Assembly: GCA_003022945.1 (NCBI GenBank)
Contig: PXRZ01000072.1
Location: forward strand, 62,001-126,000
Direction: 5' to 3'
Length of the DNA: 64,000 nt
Source of the DNA: Halobacteriales archaeon QS_8_69_73
GTDB taxonomy: Archaea > Halobacteriota > Halobacteria > Halobacteriales > Haloarculaceae
This document shows, one piece after another, positions 2,085 to 58,184 of the stretch; position 1 is the stretch's first letter, and each line of letters begins with the position of its first letter. Made by a program: the position numbers and the translations under genes. The notes beneath the pieces were generated by a model. The model made no database searches. It was not told the origin of the DNA and worked only from the letters and a program-made list of their open reading frames with translations.

Positions 2085-2652
2085 ACCGGCAAGCCAGCCT
2101 CTGTCGATCGGTCGACCGGCTCCCGGCGGACTGAACGGGCGAGACGCTGCGTGGCGGCGACGCCGTGATCCGAGAGAGCGACGCTCTCTTGTCATACCGA
2201 AGGAACGGAGTTTCCTCGTCGCTCGCGGGACCGGGGGTCCCGCTCACTCACGAACGGCGCGAAGCGCCGTTTGACCGACCACAGAAGCGGGTGCCGGCGG
2301 TGCCGGCACCCCGCGCGGCACTGCCGCGCGAGGACATTACAGGCCGTACCGCGACCGAGAAGCGTGGTTCGAACGACGCGACGCATCGTTCGTCAGTGCG
2401 GGAAATCGAGGACATCTCGCGTGCAGTCAGAACGCGCCGCGTTCTGCCGACAATGCCGGACGACGTCCGGCAAGCGGCCAGAATCCGCGGGATTCTGGCG
2501 ACACCACGAGAGAGCGTCGTTCTCTCGAACGACAGCGAGCAGTAGCGAGGCGCCGAGCGAAGCGAGGGGCCTCGGGCTGGCGAACGGCGAGCCCCGCGAG
2601 CCGTGAGCCGCGGGCAGCGAGTCGATAGCGCCGGGGGCTTCCTGATCTTCAG
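2085..2652 (+). repeat. Hairpin-array repeat, copy A
   Basis: A ~570 bp gene-free segment made of about a dozen short perfect hairpins separated by linkers. Clear ones are AGAGAGC-gac-GCTCTCT (~2173-2189), AGGAA-acggag-TTCCT (~2201-2216), GCGGGACC-ggg-GGTCCCGC (~2225-2243), AACGGCGC-gaa-GCGCCGTT (~2253-2271), GGGTGCCGGC-ggt-GCCGGCACCC (~2289-2311), GCGCGGC-act-GCCGCGC (~2312-2329), GAACGCG-c-CGCGTTC (~2430-2444) and AGAATCC-gcg-GGATTCT (~2480-2496). Linkers such as TCACTCACGAAC, GCGAGGACA and GACAGCGAGCAGTAGCGAGGC recur in copies B and/or C. No reading frame is supported. Its function is unknown. Confidence 0.75.
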
Positions 2653-16929: not shown

Positions 16930-18195
16930 ATGGCGGATCAGGTCGTCACCCGCACACTCAAAGCGAGTGTCAGCAACCACTCGCAAGTCGGTGACGATCT
17001 TGATTCGCATGGCTTCGCCGCATCAAAACTGTGGAATGTCGGCCGGTGGACGATCTCGCGTGTCTGGGACGCTATCGACCACATTCCCGACGCTGAGGAA
17101 CTGTGTTCGTATCTCAAAACGCACGACCGCTACGCGGATTTGCACTCACAATCCAGTCAACGAGTTCTTCAGGAACTCGGAGAAGCATTCGTGTCATGGT
17201 ACGAACAAGGCGACTCAGATGCAAACCCGCCCAGTTACCGCAAACATAGCGACACCCACCCACGCTCAACCGTCACGTGGAAAAATCAAGGCTTCAAACT
17301 CGACACGAAGTACGGCCGCGTTCGCCTCTCCAAAGGACGGAATATGAAGCCGTCTCCGTACGCCGCCGACTACATTCTTTGCGAACACCGACTCCAAACA
17401 GACGACAGTCAGACGCTCGCAGATGTTGGAACAGTCCAGACGGTGCGCGCCGTCTGGACTGGTGATGAGTGGGAACTGCATTTCGTCTGTAAGATGCGGG
17501 TTGACGCGCCCGATACGCCCGGTGAGAAGACCGCCGGTGTTGATCTCGGCATCTGCAATACGGCAGCTGTCTCCATCGGTGACGAGACACTGCTGTATCC
17601 GGGCAATGCGCTGAAAGAAGATGCCCACTACTTTCAACAAGAGGAATATGGCACGGAGGGCGAAGACGGCCCGAGTAACCACGCAGAGTGGGCGCGACGG
17701 AAGAAATCCCGACGACAAGACCACTTCCTGCACGCGCTCGCTGCCGACGTAGTGCAGCAGTGCGCAGAGCGTGATGTTGGACGGATTGCCGTTGGTCACC
17801 CCAAACACATTCGCGAGGATGAGGACTGGGGGCGGCACGGCAACAAGCGGTTGCACGACTGGGCGTTTGAAACGCTTCTCAGCCACATTGAGTACAAAGC
17901 TGAAGACCGTGGTATTAATGTGGAGCGTGTTGATGAAGCCCGGTTGAAGGCATCAAAGACGTGTTGTGAGTGTGGCACGGGAGCTGACTCCAACCGCGTG
18001 GAACGTGGACTATACATATGTGATGAGTGTGGGTTAGTTGCGAATAGTGATCTGAATGCGGCGGAGAATATGCGGGCGACGGTAACTCCGAATCCAGCGA
18101 TGGATAGGAGTAACGGCTGTTTGGCGCAGCCATCGGTACGCCTGTTCGACAAATCCACGGGCAGAGTCCGCCCACAAGAACAGGTGGTACCGTGA
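16930..18195 (+). CDS. tnpB: TnpB, RNA-guided endonuclease of IS1341-type element
   Basis: 421 residues, full length. The RuvC-like active site shows Asp205 ('AGVDLGICNTAAVS') and Asp374 ('NSDLNAAEN'). The second acidic residue is probably Glu296 ('HIREDEDWG'), since the usual E-D-L box reads G-H-P here. The zinc finger has Cys345-x2-Cys348 and Cys364-x2-Cys367 ('CCECGTGADSNRVERGLYICDEC'-like). An N-terminal helical/wedge region precedes it. TnpB proteins cut DNA guided by an omega RNA from the element's right end, promoting transposon retention. No truncation or frameshift is present, so it may be active. Confidence 0.95.
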   Translation: MADQVVTRTLKASVSNHSQVGDDLDSHGFAASKLWNVGRWTISRVWDAIDHIPDAEELCSYLKTHDRYADLHSQSSQRVLQELGEAFVSWYEQGDSDANPPSYRKHSDTHPRSTVTWKNQGFKLDTKYGRVRLSKGRNMKPSPYAADYILCEHRLQTDDSQTLADVGTVQTVRAVWTGDEWELHFVCKMRVDAPDTPGEKTAGVDLGICNTAAVSIGDETLLYPGNALKEDAHYFQQEEYGTEGEDGPSNHAEWARRKKSRRQDHFLHALAADVVQQCAERDVGRIAVGHPKHIREDEDWGRHGNKRLHDWAFETLLSHIEYKAEDRGINVERVDEARLKASKTCCECGTGADSNRVERGLYICDECGLVANSDLNAAENMRATVTPNPAMDRSNGCLAQPSVRLFDKSTGRVRPQEQVVP

Positions 18196-18264
18196 ACCAC
18201 AATATCCCAATCCAGCGGCGCGGCGCCGTGGGAATCCACGCGCTTTAGCGCGGGGAGGATGTCA
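18120..18264 (+). ncRNA. Probable omega RNA (TnpB guide RNA scaffold)
   Basis: In TnpB elements the guide RNA is made from the 3' end of tnpB through the right end. Here the region ends with a GGAATCC box, the stem CACGCGC/GCGCGGG and GAGGATGTCA. The predicted guide would begin immediately after 18264 and read into AGCGTACCGCCGTTCC, i.e. antisense to the end of the sulfite-oxidase-like gene. The 5' boundary is a guess. Confidence 0.5.
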
Positions 18265-19621: not shown

Positions 19622-20085
19622 TTGACGTCCTCCCGGCCCTGAAGGGCGAGGACTCCTCCATGGAGTCATCCGAGACGGCTTCGCCGTCTCGTGAGTGAGC
19701 GGGACCTTCGGCCCCGCGAGCTACGAGGGAACTCCGTTCCCTCGGCGTGACGGGAGACCGGCGGTCTCCTGAACCATCGTGGGTCACAGGCCGTGCCGTC
19801 GGCCGTCCTCGACCGTCGAAGCCACACAGTCGGACCAACCGGGCGAGGACTGCTTTTTGCCTGCCGCCGCGACAGCATCGCCGCGACCCCGGGGACGCCC
19901 TCCTGGGAACGGTATGGTGGCTTTCGTCGCCCGGGCGGAACCCGATCCAACCGCCAGTTTTTGCCCTTGTTGGGTGGCTTACCGTCCGACGCCAGGAGTG
20001 ATGACCATCGGGAGAGTGGAGCGAAAGCCTACGGCGCGTATCCCTGTCCTGAACGGCGAGGCCTTGCGCCCATCTTTCACGTAAG
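19622..20085 (-). mobile_element. tnpB-less TnpB-type element with hairpin modules (element D)
   Basis: Read on the minus strand, the right end at 19622-19660 has the TnpB right-end form: GAGTCCT box, stem CTCGCCC-ttca-GGGC(c)GGGAGG, then ACGTCAAC. The left end at about 20045-20085 repeats the GCAAGGC...CCTCGCC-ttca motif of the full element's left end. No tnpB lies between. Just inside the right end are four triloop hairpins (19670-19775) whose linkers match arrays A and C: TCACTCAC, GTCAC and GCTCGCGGG. The remaining interior has no gene. I infer a non-autonomous element that could be mobilised or guided by TnpB in trans. Confidence 0.6.
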
Positions 20086-26944: not shown

Positions 26945-27412
26945 AGCACCGGCGAGCTGGTCTGTTCCTGCCGGGGGAACTAACTGAGTCCTGGCGGACT
27001 GAAAGGGCGAGGCGCTCTCGGCGAACCCGGACGTTCGCGGCGCCGTGCGCCGCGAGCTCGGGAGAGCGACGCTCTCCCGGTGACGCAAGCAGCGAGGGAG
27101 CCGTTGGCTCCCTCAGGCAGTCGGCGCACGGCGCCGACGACAGCGAGGGACCGAAGATCCCTCGGGCCGCTCGCGCGGCATCGCCGCGCGAGGACACTGC
27201 AGGCCGCCCCGCGGCCGAAGCGCGTCGTTCAGAAGATCTTCGATCTTCCGTGATCACGAAAATCTTCGATTTTCGGACGACAGCGAGTCGCGGGCAGCGA
27301 GGCGACGGAGTCGCCTCGGGCTGTGCGAGGCGGTGGAACCGCCTCGAATTCGCGGCGCGGAGCGCCGCGCATGGCCCGCGAGCAGAAGTCGAGAGCGCCG
27401 AGGGCTTTCTGG
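26945..27412 (+). repeat. Hairpin-array repeat, copy B
   Basis: ~470 bp between menC and menE, same organisation as copies A and C. Hairpins include GGGAGAGC-gac-GCTCTCCC (~27060-27078), GAGGGAGCC-gtt-GGCTCCCTC (~27094-27114), CGGCGC-acg-GCGCCG (~27122-27136), GCGCGGC-atc-GCCGCGC (~27174-27190), GGCCGC-ccc-GCGGCC (27202-27216), GAAGATC-ttc-GATCTTC, GAAAATC-ttc-GATTTTC, GAGGCGAC-gga-GTCGCCTC, GAGGCGGT-gga-ACCGCCTC and GCGGCGC-gga-GCGCCGC. Shared linkers are GCGAGGACACTGCAGG, GAAGCGCGTCG, CGTGATCACGAAA, GGACGACAGCGAG and the 3' flank GAGCGCCGAGGGCTT. No gene is present. Confidence 0.8.
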
Positions 27413-27474: not shown

Positions 27475-28962
27475 ATGAACGGGCCGGCGTTCATGCGGGA
27501 CTGGCTCGCCGTCCGCGCCGACGCCACCCCGGAAGCGACGGCGCTGGCGGCCGCCGGCGACGTCGACGACGCGGCGACGTACGCGGACCTCGACCGCCGC
27601 GTCGAGACACTTGCCGGGCGGCTGGCGGCCCGCGGCATCGGCGTCGACGACCCGCTGGCCGTCTGCTCGGGCACTCGAGCGGCGTTCGTCGAGGTCATCC
27701 ACGCCGCCCAGCGGCTCGGCGCCACGCTGGTCCCCGTCGACGCCCGGGCGACGGCCGCGGAGCTCGGCGTCCGGTTCGACCGCGTGTCGCCGGCGGCCGT
27801 CGTCTGCGAGGCGGCGACGGAGACGGCCGCCATCGAGGCCGCCGACGCGCCGGTGCTGTCGCTCGACGACCCGACGGCCGACGCCGAGCCGCTGTCGGCC
27901 GTCGATCCCGAGCCGTTCGACCTCCCGGAATGGGCCGTCGACGACCCCGTCGCGGTGCTGTTCACCTCCGGGACGACCGGCGACCCGAAGGGGGTCGTCC
28001 TCACGACGGCCAACGTCCTCGCCAGCGCGACGGCCTCGGCGTTCCGGCTCGGCCTGCTACCCGACGACTGCTGGCACGTCGCGCTGCCGATGTACCACAC
28101 CGGCGGATTGGCACCGGTCTACCGGTCGGTGCTCTACGGGACGGCGCTGTCCGTCCAGCGGGATTTCGAGCCGGCGGCGACGCTGTCGGCGATGCGGGCC
28201 GCCGACGCCACCGGCGTCTCCCTCGTGCCGACGATGCTCGAGCGGCTCCTCGAGGCCGGGTCGCTGCCGGACCTCCGGGTCGTTCTGGTCGGCGGCGCCC
28301 CCTGCCCGCCGGACCTACTGGAGCGGGCCGACGACCGCGGCGTCCCCGTCGCGCCGACCTACGGGATGACGGAGGCGGCCTCGCAGATCGCGACCGCCCG
28401 GCCGTCGGTCGCCGCGGACCACCCCAACTCGGTCGGACACCCGTTGCTGTTCGCCGAACTGTCGGTGGTCGACGAAGCCGACGCGCGCTGTGCCCCCGGC
28501 GAGTCGGGCGAACTCGTCGTCGGCGGCGCCGTGGTGACGCCGGGCTACCTCGACGCGGACCGCACCGCCGAGGCGTTCTGCAGCGCCGGTCTCCGGACCG
28601 GCGACCGCGGTCACCGCGACGAGGCCGGCCGGGTGTACGTCGAGGGCCGGCTCGATGACACCATCGTCACCGGCGGCGAGAACGTCGACCCCGCGGAGGT
28701 GGCGACGGCGCTGCGGCGTCACGATGCCGTCGCCGACTGCGCCGTGGTCGGGCTCCCAGACGAAACGTGGGGCCAGCGGGTCGCGGCGCTGGTCATCGCC
28801 AACGAGGGGGCATCGGCGGCCGACCTCCGGGAGCACTGCCGGGGCCGGCTGGCCGACTTCAAGCGCCCCCGGACGGTCGACTTCGCCGCCGAACTGCCGC
28901 GGACCGCCTCCGGCACCGTCGACCGGGCAGCTGTCCGCCGGCAACTCGGTGCCGACGACTGA
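27475..28962 (+). CDS. menE: o-Succinylbenzoate-CoA ligase (MenE)
   Basis: 495 residues, ANL adenylating superfamily. Motifs are in order: P-loop 'AVLFTSGTTGDPKGVVLT', 'VALPMYHTGGLAPVYRSVLYG' (typical of MenE), 'LVGGAPCPPDLLERA', 'APTYGMTEAASQIAT', 'RTGDRGHRDEAGRVYVEGRLDDTIVTGGENVDPAEVATAL' and the catalytic Lys region 'FKRPRTVDFAAELPRTASGTVDRAAV'. It activates o-succinylbenzoate with CoA for MenB. Its own promoter (AAATATACC, 27460-27468) shows it is transcribed separately from menC across array B. Confidence 0.96.
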   Translation: MNGPAFMRDWLAVRADATPEATALAAAGDVDDAATYADLDRRVETLAGRLAARGIGVDDPLAVCSGTRAAFVEVIHAAQRLGATLVPVDARATAAELGVRFDRVSPAAVVCEAATETAAIEAADAPVLSLDDPTADAEPLSAVDPEPFDLPEWAVDDPVAVLFTSGTTGDPKGVVLTTANVLASATASAFRLGLLPDDCWHVALPMYHTGGLAPVYRSVLYGTALSVQRDFEPAATLSAMRAADATGVSLVPTMLERLLEAGSLPDLRVVLVGGAPCPPDLLERADDRGVPVAPTYGMTEAASQIATARPSVAADHPNSVGHPLLFAELSVVDEADARCAPGESGELVVGGAVVTPGYLDADRTAEAFCSAGLRTGDRGHRDEAGRVYVEGRLDDTIVTGGENVDPAEVATALRRHDAVADCAVVGLPDETWGQRVAALVIANEGASAADLREHCRGRLADFKRPRTVDFAAELPRTASGTVDRAAVRRQLGADD

Positions 28963-30347: not shown

Positions 30348-30812
30348 CTACCGCAACAGCGACGTCATCTCACACGAGACGACCGTCTGATCGCGCTGGG
30401 TGACGACCTCGACGGCCGTCCGGACGGTGCCGTTGCCGGGGCCGTCGTCCCGCGGGCGGGTCTCGATGACCTCGCTTTCGACGTGGATCGTGTCGCCGAG
30501 GTAAACCGGCTGCCGGAACCGCAGGTCGTCGATTCCGTAGAAGGCCACCAGCGCCTCCCGCTCCTCGGGGGACCGGGACTGCCACAGCAGGCCGGTCGCC
30601 GCAGAGACGACCAGCATGCCGTGGGCGATGCGCTCGCCGAACATCGACTCGTCCATCCGCTCGGCGTCGGTGTGGAGGTGGTTGAAGTCCCCGGAGACGC
30701 CGGCGAAGTTGGTCACGTCGGCCTCGGTGATGGTCCGGCCCTGCGTGACGGTCGTCTCGCCCTCCTCGACGTCGGCGAAGACGGACGGCGGGTCGGCGTC
30801 GTCGTCGCTCAT
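30348..30812 (-). CDS. MaoC family (R)-hydratase
   Basis: 154 residues starting MSDDDADPPS. The hot-dog fold hydratase motif 'ITEADVTNFAGVSGDFNHLHTDAERM' contains the catalytic Asp and His, followed by 'GERIAHGMLVVSAATGLLW'. It hydrates 2-enoyl-CoA to (R)-3-hydroxyacyl-CoA, feeding beta-oxidation or polyhydroxyalkanoate synthesis. Its start overlaps the stop of the upstream 3-hydroxyacyl-CoA dehydrogenase by four bases, forming an operon for acyl-CoA metabolism. Confidence 0.95.
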   Translation of the reverse strand: MSDDDADPPSVFADVEEGETTVTQGRTITEADVTNFAGVSGDFNHLHTDAERMDESMFGERIAHGMLVVSAATGLLWQSRSPEEREALVAFYGIDDLRFRQPVYLGDTIHVESEVIETRPRDDGPGNGTVRTAVEVVTQRDQTVVSCEMTSLLR

Positions 30813-32812
30813 CGGCCCTCGAACTCCGGTTCGCGGTCGGCGGTGAACGCCTCGGCGCCCTCGGAGGTGTCCTCCGTCGATAGCAGCAGGCCGAAGGCCT
30901 GCGACTCCATGCGAAGTCCGGCGTCGATGTCGGCGTCGCGGCCCTCGTCCATCACCTGCTTGGCCTTCCGCAGGGCGACCGGCGGCCCGGAGACGAGGTC
31001 GTCGACGAACTCCTCGACGGTCGTCCCGAATTCCGCCTCGGGGACGGCGCGGTTGATGAGCCCCCAGTCCTCGGCGGTGTCGGCGTCGATGCGGTTGCCC
31101 CGGAAGACGAGCTCCTTGGCGCGAGCCTCCGTCAGCATCCGGACGACCCGCTGGGTGCCGCCGCCGCCGGGGATTAGCCCGAGGTCGATCTCCGGGAAGC
31201 CGAACTCCGAGTCCGTCGTGGCGATCCGCAGGTCGCAGGCCAGCGCCAGCTCGTGGCCCCCACCGAGACAGTAGCCGTCGATCTTCGCGAGCGTCGGCCG
31301 GGGGAACTCCGCGACCGTCCGGAAGACCGGCGTCACCTCGACCTCGTGGGGGTCGACGCCCGCGAAGCCGGTGACGTCCGCCCCCGCCGAGAAGGCCCGG
31401 TCGCCGGCGCCCTCGAAGGTGACCGCCCGGACCGTCTCGAGGTCCGCCGTCTCCAGGACGTGGACGATCTCGTCCATCATGTCCCGGTTGAGGGCGTTCA
31501 GCCGCTCGGTCCGGTCGAGCGTCACCGTCAGCAGTCCGTCGCGCAGCTCGACGTCGATCGTCGTGTAATCGCGGCCGGCGTCGGCGCCGTACTCGTAGAA
31601 GCCGGCGCCGGCGTCCTCGCCGGTCCGACCGGCCTCGACCAGCTCCCGGAGGTGATTCGACGGCTCGTACCGCTCGGCGCCGGTCGCCTCCTGCAGCGTC
31701 TCTAGCTTCTCCAGCACCGTGTCGAGCCCGAGCTTGTCGGCCCGCCGGCACGGCCCCTCCGGGAAGCCGGCGCCGAGCCGGAGCCCGGTGTCGATGTCCT
31801 CCGGCGTCGCGACGCCCTGCCCGACCAGCCCGGCGGCCTCGTCGATGATGCGGGCCTCGATCCGAAGCCAGTCGAACGCCTCGGAGACGTCGTCGGCGGT
31901 GTAGTCGACGCCGTCGCCATTGCCGGCGTCGCCGGCGTCGCCGTCCGCCTGTAACGTCTCCGATGCTGCTCCGTCGCCGTAATCGTAGTAGCCGACGCCG
32001 GTCTTCCGGCCCAGCTCCTCGCGTTCGACCTTCTCCTCGACGATCGGCGGGATCGGCTCGCCGGCTTCCGTCCGCACCCGGTAGCCGATGTCGATGCCGG
32101 TCATGTCCGACAGCTCGAACGGCCCCATCGGGTAGCCCCGCTCGTGGACCATCGTCGCGTCGGCCTCCCGAACCTCCGTTTCGCCCTCCGAGACCATCCA
32201 GGCGGCCTCGTCGCCGAACGGCCCGAGGACGGTGTTGACGACGAACCCCCGGACGTCCTCGCGGACGTCGATCGGCGTCCGATCGATCGACTCGACGAAC
32301 TCGGCGGCGGTCTCGGCGGTCTCGTCGGCCGTCTCGTCGCCGTAGATGACCTCGACGAGGTCCATCTTCACCGGCGGATTGAAGAAGTGTGTGCCGACGA
32401 CCCGCTCCGAACGGTCGGTGGCCGCCGCGACGTCCGTGATGGGCAGCGAGGAGGTGTTCGACGCCAGGATCGCCCCTGCGGGCGCCAGCTCGTCGAGGTC
32501 GGCGAAGATCTCCCGCTTTAGATCCAGCTCCTCGGGAGCGGCCTCGACGACGAGGTCGGCGTCATCGACGGCCATCTCCAGGTCCGTCGTCGTCTCGATC
32601 CGCGACAGCACCGCCGCCGGCGACTCATCGAGGCGGTCCTTCTCGGCGAGCTTCTCCAGGGACCACTCGATCTCCCCGTATCCCTCCTCGACGAACGCCG
32701 GCTCGACGTCCCGCATCGTTACCTCGTAGCCGGCCATCGCGACGACCTCGGTGATGCCGTGTCCCATGTTGCCCGCGCCCAGCACCGCGACGCGGTCGAT
32801 GTCGGCGTGCAT
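30809..32812 (-). CDS. 3-Hydroxyacyl-CoA dehydrogenase / enoyl-CoA hydratase fusion
   Basis: 667 residues. The N-terminal NAD domain starts 'IDRVAVLGAGNMGHGITEVVAMAGYEV' (Rossmann GxGxMG). 'VGTHFFNPPVKMDLVEVI' and 'RDVRGFVVNT'-type segments belong to 3HCDH. Two C-terminal 3HCDH helical repeats follow (about 190-290 and 305-400). Residues ~415-667 are a crotonase with 'RAVTFEGAGDRAFSAGADVTGFAG' and 'KIDGYCLGGGHELALACDLRIA'. The domain order (dehydrogenase first) is the archaeal type. It performs two steps of fatty-acid beta-oxidation and is coupled to the MaoC gene. Confidence 0.96.
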   Translation of the reverse strand: MHADIDRVAVLGAGNMGHGITEVVAMAGYEVTMRDVEPAFVEEGYGEIEWSLEKLAEKDRLDESPAAVLSRIETTTDLEMAVDDADLVVEAAPEELDLKREIFADLDELAPAGAILASNTSSLPITDVAAATDRSERVVGTHFFNPPVKMDLVEVIYGDETADETAETAAEFVESIDRTPIDVREDVRGFVVNTVLGPFGDEAAWMVSEGETEVREADATMVHERGYPMGPFELSDMTGIDIGYRVRTEAGEPIPPIVEEKVEREELGRKTGVGYYDYGDGAASETLQADGDAGDAGNGDGVDYTADDVSEAFDWLRIEARIIDEAAGLVGQGVATPEDIDTGLRLGAGFPEGPCRRADKLGLDTVLEKLETLQEATGAERYEPSNHLRELVEAGRTGEDAGAGFYEYGADAGRDYTTIDVELRDGLLTVTLDRTERLNALNRDMMDEIVHVLETADLETVRAVTFEGAGDRAFSAGADVTGFAGVDPHEVEVTPVFRTVAEFPRPTLAKIDGYCLGGGHELALACDLRIATTDSEFGFPEIDLGLIPGGGGTQRVVRMLTEARAKELVFRGNRIDADTAEDWGLINRAVPEAEFGTTVEEFVDDLVSGPPVALRKAKQVMDEGRDADIDAGLRMESQAFGLLLSTEDTSEGAEAFTADREPEFEGR

Positions 32813-32819
32813 ACCGTCA

Positions 32820-33482
32820 CCTGCTGAAGCCCTCGGCGCTTTCGACTACTGCTCGCGGGCCATGCGCGGCGCTACGCGCCGCGAATTCGAGGCGGTTTCA
32901 CCGCCTCGCCGCCCGCTCGCACGGCTCGGGGCGACGCCGTCGTCTCGCTGCCCGCGGCTCACGGCTCGCGGTGCTCGCCGGCAGAGCGACGCTCTGCCGA
33001 GCCCTCGCTCATTTCACTCGCGAGGACGCCGTTCGCCGTCGAGGCACTCGCTGCCTCGCGGTTCCCATCGCTCGACCAACCGAGGCCTCCCTCCGGTCAG
33101 CCTCGCAGGTCGTGCCTCGCTACTGCTCGCTGTCGTCCGAAAATCGGAGAGTTTCGTGATCACGGACGACCGGAGGTCTCCGAGCGACGCGCTTCGGGCG
33201 CGTCGCGCCCTGCTGTGTCCTCGCGCGGCAGCGCCGCGCGGGGTGCCGGCAGCGTCGGCACCCGGTTCCGTGGTCGTTCGAACGGCGCGAAGCGCCGTTC
33301 GTGAGTGAGCGGGACTCATCGAGTCCCGCGGACCGTGCGAACGGGCGGCTCCGCCGCCCGTGAGCAAATGACGAGAGAGCGTCGCTCTCTCGGACCACGG
33401 CGTCGCCGCCACGCAGCGTCTCGCCCGTTCAGTTCGCCGGGAGCCGGTCGGCTGACCGGCAGAAACTGGCTCGCCAGTTGTC
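32820..33482 (-). repeat. Hairpin-array repeat, copy C
   Basis: ~660 bp between the dehydrogenase and SDR genes, the inverse orientation of A and B. Read on the minus strand it starts with ACTGGCGAGCCAGT and the CTGAACGGGCGAGACGCTGCG segment shared with copy A. It then has AGAGAGC-gac-GCTCTCT, CGGGCGG-cggag-CCGCCCG (33342-33360), GCGGGACTC-gat-GAGTCCCGC, GAACGGCGC-ttc-GCGCCGTTC, a GGGTGCCG stem, GCGCGGC-gct-GCCGCGC, GGGCGC-gac-GCGCCC (33196-33210), GAGGCGGT-gaa-ACCGCCTC and GCGGCGC-gta-GCGCCGC. It ends GAGCAGTAGTCG and GCGCCGAGGGCTT. No gene is present. Confidence 0.8.
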
Positions 33483-33548: not shown

Positions 33549-34430
33549 GTGCGTGTACTCATCGTCGGCGCGACCGGGTTCGTCGGGAGTCGACTGGTGG
33601 AGGCGCTGCTGGAGGCGGACCACGAGGTGGTGGCGTTCTCCCGGAGCGCCAACAGCGCGGAGTTCCCGGACGGCGTCGAGCCGTTCGAGGGCGACCTCGG
33701 CGATCCGCAGACGCTGGAGGGGCTCTGCGAGGGCGTCGACGCTGCCTACTACCTGATCCACTCGCTGACCGCCGAGAACTTCGCGGAGCTGGACCGGACC
33801 TACGCCCGCCGGTTCCGCGAGCGGGCGTCGGCGGCCGGCGTCGACCGGGTGGTCTACCTCAGCGGCATCAGCGGCGACGAGCGGGACCTCTCGCCGCATC
33901 TGGCCTCCCGCCGGGAGGTCGAGTCGGTGCTCAGCGCCGGCGAGTTCGACCTGACGGTGCTGCGGGCGGCCATCATCATCGGCACCGACAGCACCAGCTT
34001 CCGTATCGTCGACGACCTCACCGACCGCCTGCCCGTGATGACGGTCCCGAAGTGGGTCCGGACGCCCTGCCAGCCGGTCGCCGCCGACGACGCCATCACC
34101 TACCTGGTCGACGTGCTCGACGCCGAGGCGACCCGCGGCGGCACCTACGACATCGGCGCGCCGTCGGTGTGGTCCTACCAGTCGCTGCTGCGGCAGACGG
34201 CCGACGCCAAGGGCAAGCGCGTGCTCATCGTCCCGGTGCCGGTGATGTCGCCGGAACTGTCGTCCTACTGGCTCCGACTGACGACCGACGTCCAGTACGC
34301 CATTGCCCGGCCGCTGGTCGAGAGCATGCGGCACCCGGTGACGGTCGACCCCGAGCGGGACCTCCAGAACGTCATCCCCATCGACCGGACGCCGGTCGAG
34401 AGGGCCATCGACCGCGCGCTCACCGGTTAG
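33549..34430 (+). CDS. Atypical SDR / NAD(P)H-binding protein
   Basis: 293 residues starting at GTG (V/M-RVLIVGATGFVGSRLVEALL). The Rossmann glycine motif GATGFVG is at the N-terminus and 'YLIHSL', 'VDRVVYLSGISGDERDLSPHLASRREVE' and 'LTVLRAAIIIG' match the NmrA/complex-I-39-kDa-like extended SDRs. The catalytic Tyr-x3-Lys is not present, so it is more likely an NAD(P)-sensing or epimerase-like protein than a classical reductase. The last four bases overlap the convergent gene 34427-34840. Confidence 0.88.
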   Translation: MRVLIVGATGFVGSRLVEALLEADHEVVAFSRSANSAEFPDGVEPFEGDLGDPQTLEGLCEGVDAAYYLIHSLTAENFAELDRTYARRFRERASAAGVDRVVYLSGISGDERDLSPHLASRREVESVLSAGEFDLTVLRAAIIIGTDSTSFRIVDDLTDRLPVMTVPKWVRTPCQPVAADDAITYLVDVLDAEATRGGTYDIGAPSVWSYQSLLRQTADAKGKRVLIVPVPVMSPELSSYWLRLTTDVQYAIARPLVESMRHPVTVDPERDLQNVIPIDRTPVERAIDRALTG

Positions 34431-40161: not shown

Positions 40162-40815
40162 TTACTCCCGGTTGTCGGCCGCGTTTCGGTCGGGCCGGCC
40201 GTCGGTTCCGTCGTCGGCCTGCTCCCCGAGTCGGTCGGCCCCATCGTTGGCTGCGTTTCGGCCGTCGAGTCGATCGGTCCCATCGTCGGCTACGTTTCGG
40301 TCGTCGAGCCGGTCGGCTCCGTCGTCGGCGTCTCTCTGGCCAGGCCGGCCGCTGGCCCCGTCGTCGGCCCGCTTCTCGAGCCGGTCGTCGAGCCACTCGA
40401 GGAGGTAGACGACGGCCGCTTGGATCTTCTCGACCTGTGGGATGTTGGCGATGGTGACGACGAGCTGGCCGGCGCCGAGCAGTCCCAGGACGGCGAGCCC
40501 GGCGGCGAAGAGCAGCTCGCCGCTGAAGAACGCGTTGGCCGCGAAGATGAAGAACGCGAGGCTGAACCCCGCCTCGATCTTCGCCTCCAGCAGGCTGATC
40601 GTGCGGTCGACCTTGTCGAGTCGGCGATCGACGGCGAGCATCGTCTCGTTGGCCTCTCGCACCGCCGCGGCGGCCTCGTCCTCGATCTCCTCGACCCGGT
40701 CGAGGGTGTCGTTCGCGTCCTCGACGAGCTCCTCGGCCTCCGTCAGCGCCTCGGTGAACCCCTCGTCGCCGAGCAGCAGCATCAGCCGCCGGGCGTTGTC
40801 GATGTCCGAGAGCAT
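40162..40815 (-). CDS. Membrane protein with coiled coil and C-terminal acidic repeats
   Basis: 217 residues starting MLSDIDNARRLMLLLGDEGF. Residues ~20-80 form an acidic coiled coil ('ALTEAEELVEDANDTLDRVEEIEDEAAAAVREAN'). Two hydrophobic helices follow (about 88-106 and 108-130), then 'EWLDDRLEKRADDGA'. The tail (about 155-217) consists of degenerate ~13-residue repeats, A-D-D-G-A/T-D-R-L-D-D/G-R-N-V/A, encoded by tandem DNA repeats at 40165-40360. Function unknown. Repeat number may vary between strains. Confidence 0.72.
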   Translation of the reverse strand: MLSDIDNARRLMLLLGDEGFTEALTEAEELVEDANDTLDRVEEIEDEAAAAVREANETMLAVDRRLDKVDRTISLLEAKIEAGFSLAFFIFAANAFFSGELLFAAGLAVLGLLGAGQLVVTIANIPQVEKIQAAVVYLLEWLDDRLEKRADDGASGRPGQRDADDGADRLDDRNVADDGTDRLDGRNAANDGADRLGEQADDGTDGRPDRNAADNRE

Positions 40816-56438: not shown

Positions 56439-56671
56439 TCGTCTACCGGTGGCTGTGGGACCGACCGGTATAGAACTACTGGATGGCGCGACTCGTAGTC
56501 AACTACCTCCGCGGCTGGAGACGATGAATCACGGGCCTGCTCCCCGGTAGAACCGGTAGCAATCCCATCCCAGTCGGTCCCTCCCGAACGGACTCCTATG
56601 GATCCGAGTCCAGTTCACTCGGCGACGATGACGTCGAATCCCCAATTGAATGCAAGTCCCGAATCGTCGTC
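56439..56671. other. Intergenic; read-through tail of lipoprotein copy 1
   Basis: About 230 bases. Bases 56616-56671 (minus) would encode the last 18 residues of lipoprotein copy 1 ('DDDSGLAFNWGFDVIVAE') if its TAG were read through or reverted. The flank 56585-56615 matches 57490-57520 beside copy 2. No gene otherwise. Confidence 0.45.
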
Positions 56672-57280
56672 CTACTCTGATTTTCGGATGCCGTACTTGT
56701 TGTCGAAGGGGTGTTCGCCCGCCGCGAAACAGGTCTTGGCAATGTCGGACGTGACGAGGACCCGCTCATCGGCGACCGCCTCGCCCGGTTCGAGCGTCTC
56801 TGAGCCGATCACTCTCGGCACAGCACTTCCACCGATCGGACAGCCGTTGGAGATGTCGGCTGACCCGTAATCGACCGCTAAATGGTGCCCCGAACAAAAA
56901 GACGCGTGAAACGGGAGATCCGGAGCATCTGACGTGAGGTACCAGGAACGACTGTCCGTATTTCGGAGCGAGATAAAAAGCGTTGCGCCCCGGCTGCTGG
57001 TCGGTTGCTCGAGGAGTTCGACGCGTCCCTCCAGGGGGACGGATTCGGGGAGTGGGTGCGCTCGGACCGTCTCGATTCGGCCGACGCCGCCGGTCGGGGT
57101 CGGCTTCTCGGATGAAAAGTCGAATGACTCGTCTTTGGTGTCAGTCGGCGTCTCCGTCGCAGTCGGCGTCTCGGTATCGGTTCGGGACGGTGCTTCAGCC
57201 GCCTCGTCACTGGAGCCAGTGAGCGCACAGCCGGCTAGGCTCGCCAAGGTGGCCGACGTCAGCAGCCTTCTCCGTTTCAT
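56672..57280 (-). CDS. Lipoprotein of unknown function, copy 1, truncated by TAG
   Basis: 202 residues with lipobox 'LTSATLASLAGCALTG' (Cys18), a Thr/Glu/Pro-rich stalk ('TDTETPTATETPTDTK') and a beta-rich domain ('FISLRNTDSRSWYLTSDAPDLPFHASFCSG', three Cys). Compared with copy 2 the last ~18 residues are cut off by a TAG where copy 2 has GGG. It is anchored outside the membrane. Function unknown; the 'ESVPLEGRVELLEQPTSSRGATL' block is shared with copy 2. Whether the shortened product is functional cannot be told. Confidence 0.8.
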   Translation of the reverse strand: MKRRRLLTSATLASLAGCALTGSSDEAAEAPSRTDTETPTATETPTDTKDESFDFSSEKPTPTGGVGRIETVRAHPLPESVPLEGRVELLEQPTSSRGATLFISLRNTDSRSWYLTSDAPDLPFHASFCSGHHLAVDYGSADISNGCPIGGSAVPRVIGSETLEPGEAVADERVLVTSDIAKTCFAAGEHPFDNKYGIRKSE

Positions 57281-57518
57281 GATTCTGGCTAACGATTATA
57301 TCATCTGGTATATTACTATTTCCTATACTAAGTTAATGTGAACAGCCGGCTGACTCGGGAGCGTCTTGCGATTGCTCCAAATTGCAAGTATCTTAGGCTG
57401 ACCATTCCGAGGCCTGATGAATTAATTCACTCCACGGACCGAGAGAATTTTTATAGAGGGCGATTCACTCCGACATATGTCCTCCTCTCGAACGGACTCC
57501 TGTGGACCCGAGTCCAGT

Positions 57519-58184
57519 TCACTCGGCGACGACGACGTCGAATCCCCAATTGAATGCAATTCTTGAATCGTCGTCCCCCTCCGATTTTTCGATGGTATAT
57601 CTGTTACTAAAGGGGTGTTCGCCCGCCGCGAAACACGTATCGGCAACGTCGTATGTGGCAAGAACCCGCTCGCCAGCGACCGCCTCGCCTGGTTCGAGCG
57701 TCTCTGAGTCCAACGTTCTCACCACGGCACTTCCGCCGACCGGACACCCGTCGAAGATGTCGGCGGACCCGGGATCGACCGCTAAATGGAACCCCGAACA
57801 AGAAGACGCGTGAAACGGGAGCTCCGGAGCACCTAATGTGAGGTACCAGGAACGGCTGTCCGTGTTTCGGAGCGAGATGGAAAGCGTCCCGCCCCGACTG
57901 CTGGTCGGTTGCTCGAGGAGTTCGACGCGTCTCTCCAGGGGGACGGACTCGGGGAGTGGATGTGCCCGGACCGCCTCGATTCGGCCGACATCACCGGCCG
58001 GGGTCGACCTCTCGGGCGAAAAATCGGATGACTCGTCTTCGGTGGCAGTCGGTGTCTCCGTCGCAGTCGGCGTCTCAGTATCGGTTCGGGACGGTGTTTC
58101 GGCCGCCTCGTCGCTAGGGCCAGCGAACGAACAGCCGGCGAGGCCCGACAAGACAGCCGACGTCAGCAGCTTTCTCCGTTTCAT
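57519..58184 (-). CDS. Lipoprotein of unknown function, copy 2, full length
   Basis: 221 residues starting MKRRKLLTSAVLSGLAGCSF (lipobox Cys18). Same layout as copy 1, about 80% identical by eye, with the extra C-terminal 'GDDDSRIAFNWGFDVVVAE'. The start at 58184 is preferred over one 17 residues upstream because it begins the lipoprotein signal. The shared 'NTDSRSWYLTLGAPELPFHA' pattern resembles the lipoprotein at 42510. Exported and membrane-anchored. Function unknown. Confidence 0.85.
   Translation of the reverse strand: MKRRKLLTSAVLSGLAGCSFAGPSDEAAETPSRTDTETPTATETPTATEDESSDFSPERSTPAGDVGRIEAVRAHPLPESVPLERRVELLEQPTSSRGGTLSISLRNTDSRSWYLTLGAPELPFHASSCSGFHLAVDPGSADIFDGCPVGGSAVVRTLDSETLEPGEAVAGERVLATYDVADTCFAAGEHPFSNRYTIEKSEGDDDSRIAFNWGFDVVVAE

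Follow-up and report, generated by a model that had tools for sequence, protein, structure and literature searches.

The window, by which we mean the whole stretch of 64,000 nucleotides analysed here, contains four clusters of short palindromes (arrays A, D, B and C) that belong to one family of dispersed, intergenic DNA hairpin repeats extending across the haloarchaeal order. Linkers in this family stay while stems turn over, and this pattern is probably explained by template switching between the two arms of a hairpin, together with recombination between arrays.

The window is part of a haloarchaeal draft genome (G000; 2.63 Mb in 79 contigs, 76% complete) and has a GC content of 70%. Counting a hairpin as perfect when its stem measures at least 8 and its loop 3, we found 33 in the window, 23 of them inside the 1270 nt of arrays A, D, B and C, compared with a mean of 4.3 and a maximum of 10 in shuffled windows. 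All four sites are apparently intergenic (Table 1); array C is flanked by a 3HCDH/ECH gene (30809-32812, minus strand) and an NAD(P)-binding gene (33549-34430, plus strand), and shares 80% identity with array A across 287 bp. BLAST with array C retrieved 51 pieces from G000 itself, and 43 of 60 relatives gave matches, the comparisons with relatives covering the sequence stretches around these matches. The plasmid and viral collections searched gave no match, no Rfam family matched the arrays (the window gave only sot0042 and a tRNA), and no description of these hairpin arrays was found in the open-access literature.

Table 1. Hairpin arrays, modules and loop-inverted hairpins of the window
Feature	Position	Strand	Remarks
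Array A, whole span	2163-2533		
Array A, first cluster	2163-2330	+	Homologous to array C with one module replaced
Array A, second hairpin cluster	2428-2533	+	
Element D, three hairpins	19671-19769	-	
Array B, 12 hairpins	27035-27369		Upstream of AMP-binding gene (27475-28962)
Array C, row of perfect hairpins	33184-33479	-	Divergent intergenic region
Module A	2198-2218	+	Imperfect D-module copy, with 7 of 9 pairs formed in register
Module D hairpin CGAGGGAAC-GGA-GTTCCCTCG	19724-19744	-	Perfect 9-bp stem; GGA triloop closed by C-G
Module C hairpin ACGGGCGGC-GGA-GCCGCCCGT	33341-33361	-	Perfect 9-bp stem; GGA triloop closed by C-G
3' linker TCGCACGGTC of C-type module, conserved	33331-33340	-	Order-wide pattern
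5' linker of C-type module, conserved	33362-33367	-	TTGCTC here, CTGCTC in most copies
Hairpin GTCGGCGC-ACG-GCGCCGAC	27120-27138	+	Loop inverted in homologs L009 and L094
Hairpin GAAGATC-TTC-GATCTTC	27232-27248	+	Inverted loop GAA in G011 homolog L085 (surroundings 90% identical)
Hairpin CGAAAATC-TTC-GATTTTCG	27257-27275	+	Loop inverted in homolog L030
Hairpin CGAGGCGAC-GGA-GTCGCCTCG	27298-27318	+	Loop inverted in homolog L024
Hairpin CGCGCGGC-GCT-GCCGCGCG	33222-33240	-	Exactly inverted loop AGC in the homolog of array C70 (L002)

Linkers and stems were surveyed with an anchor consisting of the C-type linkers only (CTGCTC-N(13-27)-TCGCAYGGTC), without selection for pairing. This pattern is present in 65 of 146 genomes of the family and, at the level of the order, in 136 of 392 genomes and 49 of 95 sampled genera, some chance coding matches being included in both counts; the linker patterns of neighbouring hairpins are almost confined to G000 and its relative G011. 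One genome, G263 (family f5, genus g59), carries 51 copies of the C-type linker/hairpin pattern, whereas the other listed genomes have 0-7. Another anchor, which partly overlaps the first and holds the outermost bases of both arms fixed, gave 89 places. Both anchors pooled comprise 209 distinct genome/sequence combinations and 143 distinct sequences, with 19 distinct perfect stems of 5-9 bp set in near-constant linkers. The pair cells of near-palindromes, innermost pair excluded, are Watson-Crick in 1172 cases, G.T in 12, A.C in 13 and other in 8, the G.T and A.C counts being taken without fixing the orientation of the arrays relative to transcription.

Covariation was scored on 54 distinct 19-nt linker-anchored sequences, a set that contains imperfect copies and one evident chance match; 96.1% of its stem cells pair (G.U counted as pairing). 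The score of 0.377 compares with 0.136 after shuffling, which ignores relatedness (sd 0.015; 0 of 500 shuffles), and with at most 0.084 in a slide control, which does not; two-sided changed cells number 51 versus 13.1 in the shuffles. Outside the haloarchaea, 0 of 76 occurrences of the same linker pattern are palindromic and mean pairing is 0.24, among the matches listed, which are mainly chance bacterial ones. The stems therefore covary beyond expectation, and the original prediction of different, nearly always paired stems within the same linkers holds in this general form.

The prediction had been drawn from arrays A, C and D, taken to share one module with a CGGAG loop and three unrelated stems that always pair. 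Two of these stems are indeed perfect, and those read at 33342-33360 in C and at 19725-19743 in D each extend to 9 bp (Table 1). The supposed third stem, AGGAA/TTCCT in A (2201-2216), belongs to an imperfect copy of D seen in a slipped register: A and D are the same module (CCGAaGGAACGGAGTTtCCTCGTcGCTCGCGGGaCC versus CCGAgGGAACGGAGTTcCCTCGTaGCTCGCGGGgCC), and in register A has two one-sided substitutions, giving, as read from the sequence, one A.C and one G.T mismatch. AGGAA and TTCCT pair only if the register slips by a single base; they then form a 5-bp stem around a 6-nt loop, CGGAGT, for which the computed DNA folding energy is -2.0 as against -8.7 for D. Module A is a decayed version of the D module. 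Module C, in contrast, is a different module that occupies the same slot between GTCAT.. and GCGGGAC. Because the G011 locus orthologous to array A's right flank carries a C-type module in this slot, A-to-C represents a whole-module replacement and not a stem substitution. What looked like one module with three stems thus comprises one decayed copy and one module replacement. Nor does the CGGAG loop set the module apart, since all these hairpins usually have a C(GNA)G loop or its complement.

Homologous hairpins of G000, G011 and other relatives were matched by 10-nt flanks on both sides, in a search restricted to arrays, the unrestricted version being swamped by coding matches. Counted without polarisation on a tree, and from copies that are not independent within or between arrays, 199 distinct pairs of close homologs yield 60 compensated pair positions (independence would give 2.7) and 119 one-sided changes. 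Thirteen hairpin pairs show two or three compensated pairs each with none broken, and 21 further homolog pairs differ in length with both copies perfect. Intermediates with one arm changed, which the original prediction had sought, are found in module A and at three G011 loci, where half-changed copies read GAACGG/CCTTTC; array C of G000 has GAACGG/CCGTTC. In one of the three copies the loop is inverted and the inner stem perfect, the other two being broken at the inner stem.

Exact inversion is common among the loops. Of 32 cases with an unchanged stem and a loop that differs at each of its three bases, 18 have the exact reverse complement as their loop (p 8e-6 against a null of 0.203 from independent draws of the observed loops). 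Inversion is seen for 17 of 24 stems, more than the 12 that show a one-base loop change, and with one vote per stem 15.2 of 18 are inverted (p 2e-8). As the flanks are not self-complementary, the orientation of each hairpin is unambiguous; examples from arrays B and C are given in Table 1.

The loops are also biased in type. C(GNA)G on one strand closes 162 of 294 clustered but only 21 of 269 isolated odd-centred hairpins, and GNA or TNC loops account for 104 of the 138 perfect hairpins of the linker-anchored set. GNA triloops are described as forming DNA minihairpins of extraordinary stability (Yoshizawa et al. 1997, cited in PMC6479982), and this points to DNA, more than to RNA, as the molecule that folds, albeit short of proof. 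Folding-energy models give every triloop the same value and hence provide no ranking of triloops. That GNA loops are simply those of hairpins that fold and get corrected was unsupported (Fisher p 0.64): imperfect stems carry the same loops as perfect ones, and the loop bias is therefore not simply a by-product of folding or correction.

In the mechanism that we favour, a hairpin would fold while the DNA is single-stranded during replication or repair, and the polymerase would switch template within it, copy one arm as template for the other and switch back. Mismatches would thereby be repaired, and one-arm substitutions and indels spread to both arms; a switch spanning the loop would leave it inverted. 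Homologous recombination between dispersed arrays would move whole modules and shuffle array ends. Footprints of template switching are present, namely two-arm covariation, exact loop inversion in fixed flanks, one-arm intermediates and symmetric length changes. The loop inversions provide independent support, since compensatory point mutation does not predict them, and the near-equal frequency of G.T and A.C mismatches may also count in favour. In yeast, template switching homogenises arms and inverts spacers, including a 3-nt GAA to TTC (PMC8604942), and in rRNA it produces multi-pair compensation with loop inversion, which is rarely seen (PMC8794818). Against template switching stands the excess of one-sided over compensated differences, which slow stepwise compensation would also give, and so does the loop bias shared by imperfect and perfect stems. 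We infer that a polymerase switch makes these changes, rather than selection or cruciform resolution, which would invert loops too; that what folds is DNA in single-stranded form rather than RNA; and that the hairpins are kept without any need for a specific function. The reading offered at the outset, selection on structure or palindrome-correcting template switching, is partly supported, its specific trio having been misread.

Both the strong C(GNA)G preference and the conservation of linkers throughout the order suggest selection on these elements, and make some selected role plausible. Selection on the structure is the main rival and may act together with template switching. It would describe a functional hairpin, of DNA or RNA, whose stems change by point mutation followed by a compensating mutation and whose loops could carry GNA on either strand, since either orientation works. 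We regard this as a possible but tentative alternative. Strong covariation, one-arm intermediates, linkers conserved in 49 of 95 genera and the enrichment of very stable C(GNA)G loops in clustered hairpins all agree with it, but exact loop inversions are more frequent than independent draws from the same loop pool would give, G.T is not preferred over A.C (the transcription orientation of the arrays not being fixed), stem length ranges from 5 to 9 bp and the arrays match no Rfam family. A more speculative proposal, to which we give limited credence, would make the arrays an order-wide DNA element of haloarchaea, kept under selection, with conserved linkers and C(GNA)G hairpin shape and free stem sequence, whose folded-DNA form would be read by a hypothetical protein and whose perfect pairing would be renewed by template switching.

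Several other repeats and rearrangements were recorded. The left and right flanks of array A fall on separate G011 contigs, in both cases next to an array (G011:C12:77584 and G011:C23:80504), and the far sides of the two junctions map to a single intergenic G000 site that has no array (C30:7818-7878). Array A looks like a rearrangement breakpoint between G000 and G011, with misassembly possible given repetitive arrays and draft assemblies. A stretch of ~300 bp at L109, L111 and L136 (about 1309-1670), which carries the shortest hairpin, ACGGC-TTC-GCCGT, is 94% identical between genomes of two genera (g4 and g2), an identity that suggests recent spread. At 16930-18256 on the plus strand lies an IS605-type TnpB gene (OrfB_IS605, Cas12f1-like TNB) with the sense overlapping transcript RNA sot0042 (RF02656) at its 3' end; together they form an IS1341-type element. 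Two 300-nt direct copies (56580-56879 and 57484-57783) are 83% identical and 904 nt apart, and a 39-bp tandem repeat of 2.6 copies (40227-40329) lies within a predicted open reading frame. Window-wide direct-repeat families were rejected as codon-composition noise.

That the hairpins are REP- or PATE-like ends of IS200/IS605-family elements, spread by a hairpin-recognising Y1 (HUH) transposase, appears improbable. Haloarchaeal PATEs do have IS605-like near-terminal palindromes and mobilise without a transposase of their own (PMC3119063), a TnpB gene and its sot RNA lie in the window, and the arrays are dispersed, with the ~300-bp piece common to two genera. However, a search for Y1_Tnp (PF01797) found three in G000 and none in the array-bearing draft genomes G011, G013, G014 and G007 (72-88% complete), so that this transposase is not required; none of five locus comparisons showed a clean single-array insertion versus an empty site, and the arrays string together many different hairpins, unlike the paired ends of an element. 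Module exchange alone, in which old perfect hairpins are swapped by recombination in shared linkers and stems never change in place, would fit the A-to-C replacement and the two flanks of array A adjoining arrays on different G011 contigs, but is highly improbable, for it cannot create single compensated pairs, one-arm changes or loop flips on the same stems. Chance palindromes in DNA of such high GC content are ruled out for practical purposes by the shuffled windows, the concentration of hairpins in the arrays and the non-haloarchaeal control.

In RNA genes it is hard to tell whether selection or arm-copying mutation maintains perfect stems. The arrays offer many replicate hairpins with fixed linkers, in non-coding DNA of hundreds of genomes and with abundant loop inversions. 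If the template-switching mechanism holds, covariation alone would not, in such genomes, prove that an RNA or DNA structure is functional.

Features of the arrays recur in several known systems. Like the repetitive or double-hairpin elements of mitochondria (sponges, Allomyces; PMC2800124), which are proposed to favour recombination, they are repeated intergenic hairpins; in sponge mitochondria, however, stems are conserved and loops vary, whereas in the haloarchaeal arrays it is the stems that turn over. PATEs, the palindrome-associated transposable elements of Haloquadratum (PMC3119063), are likewise haloarchaeal, non-coding, palindromic and repeated, but their near-terminal palindromes bound an element and their insertions are strain-specific, whereas the arrays are rows of hairpins for which the five locus comparisons gave no clean insertion. 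REP and BIME sequences with RAYT transposases also form intergenic, high-copy clusters of short palindromes. The arrays differ from these in conserving the linker and not the stem, in forming rows of several different hairpins, in having linkers that differ between modules, and in occurring in several draft genomes in which no Y1 transposase was found. Quasipalindrome correction by short-range template switching (E. coli, yeast, rRNA; PMC8604942, PMC8794818) resembles the arrays in arm homogenisation, multi-pair compensation and exact inversion of the loop, seen also for 3-nt spacers (GAA to TTC). Unlike those cases, the arrays are rows of dispersed intergenic hairpins with order-wide linkers, and loop inversion, extremely rare in rRNA in combination with compensatory change (PMC8794818), is common in them.
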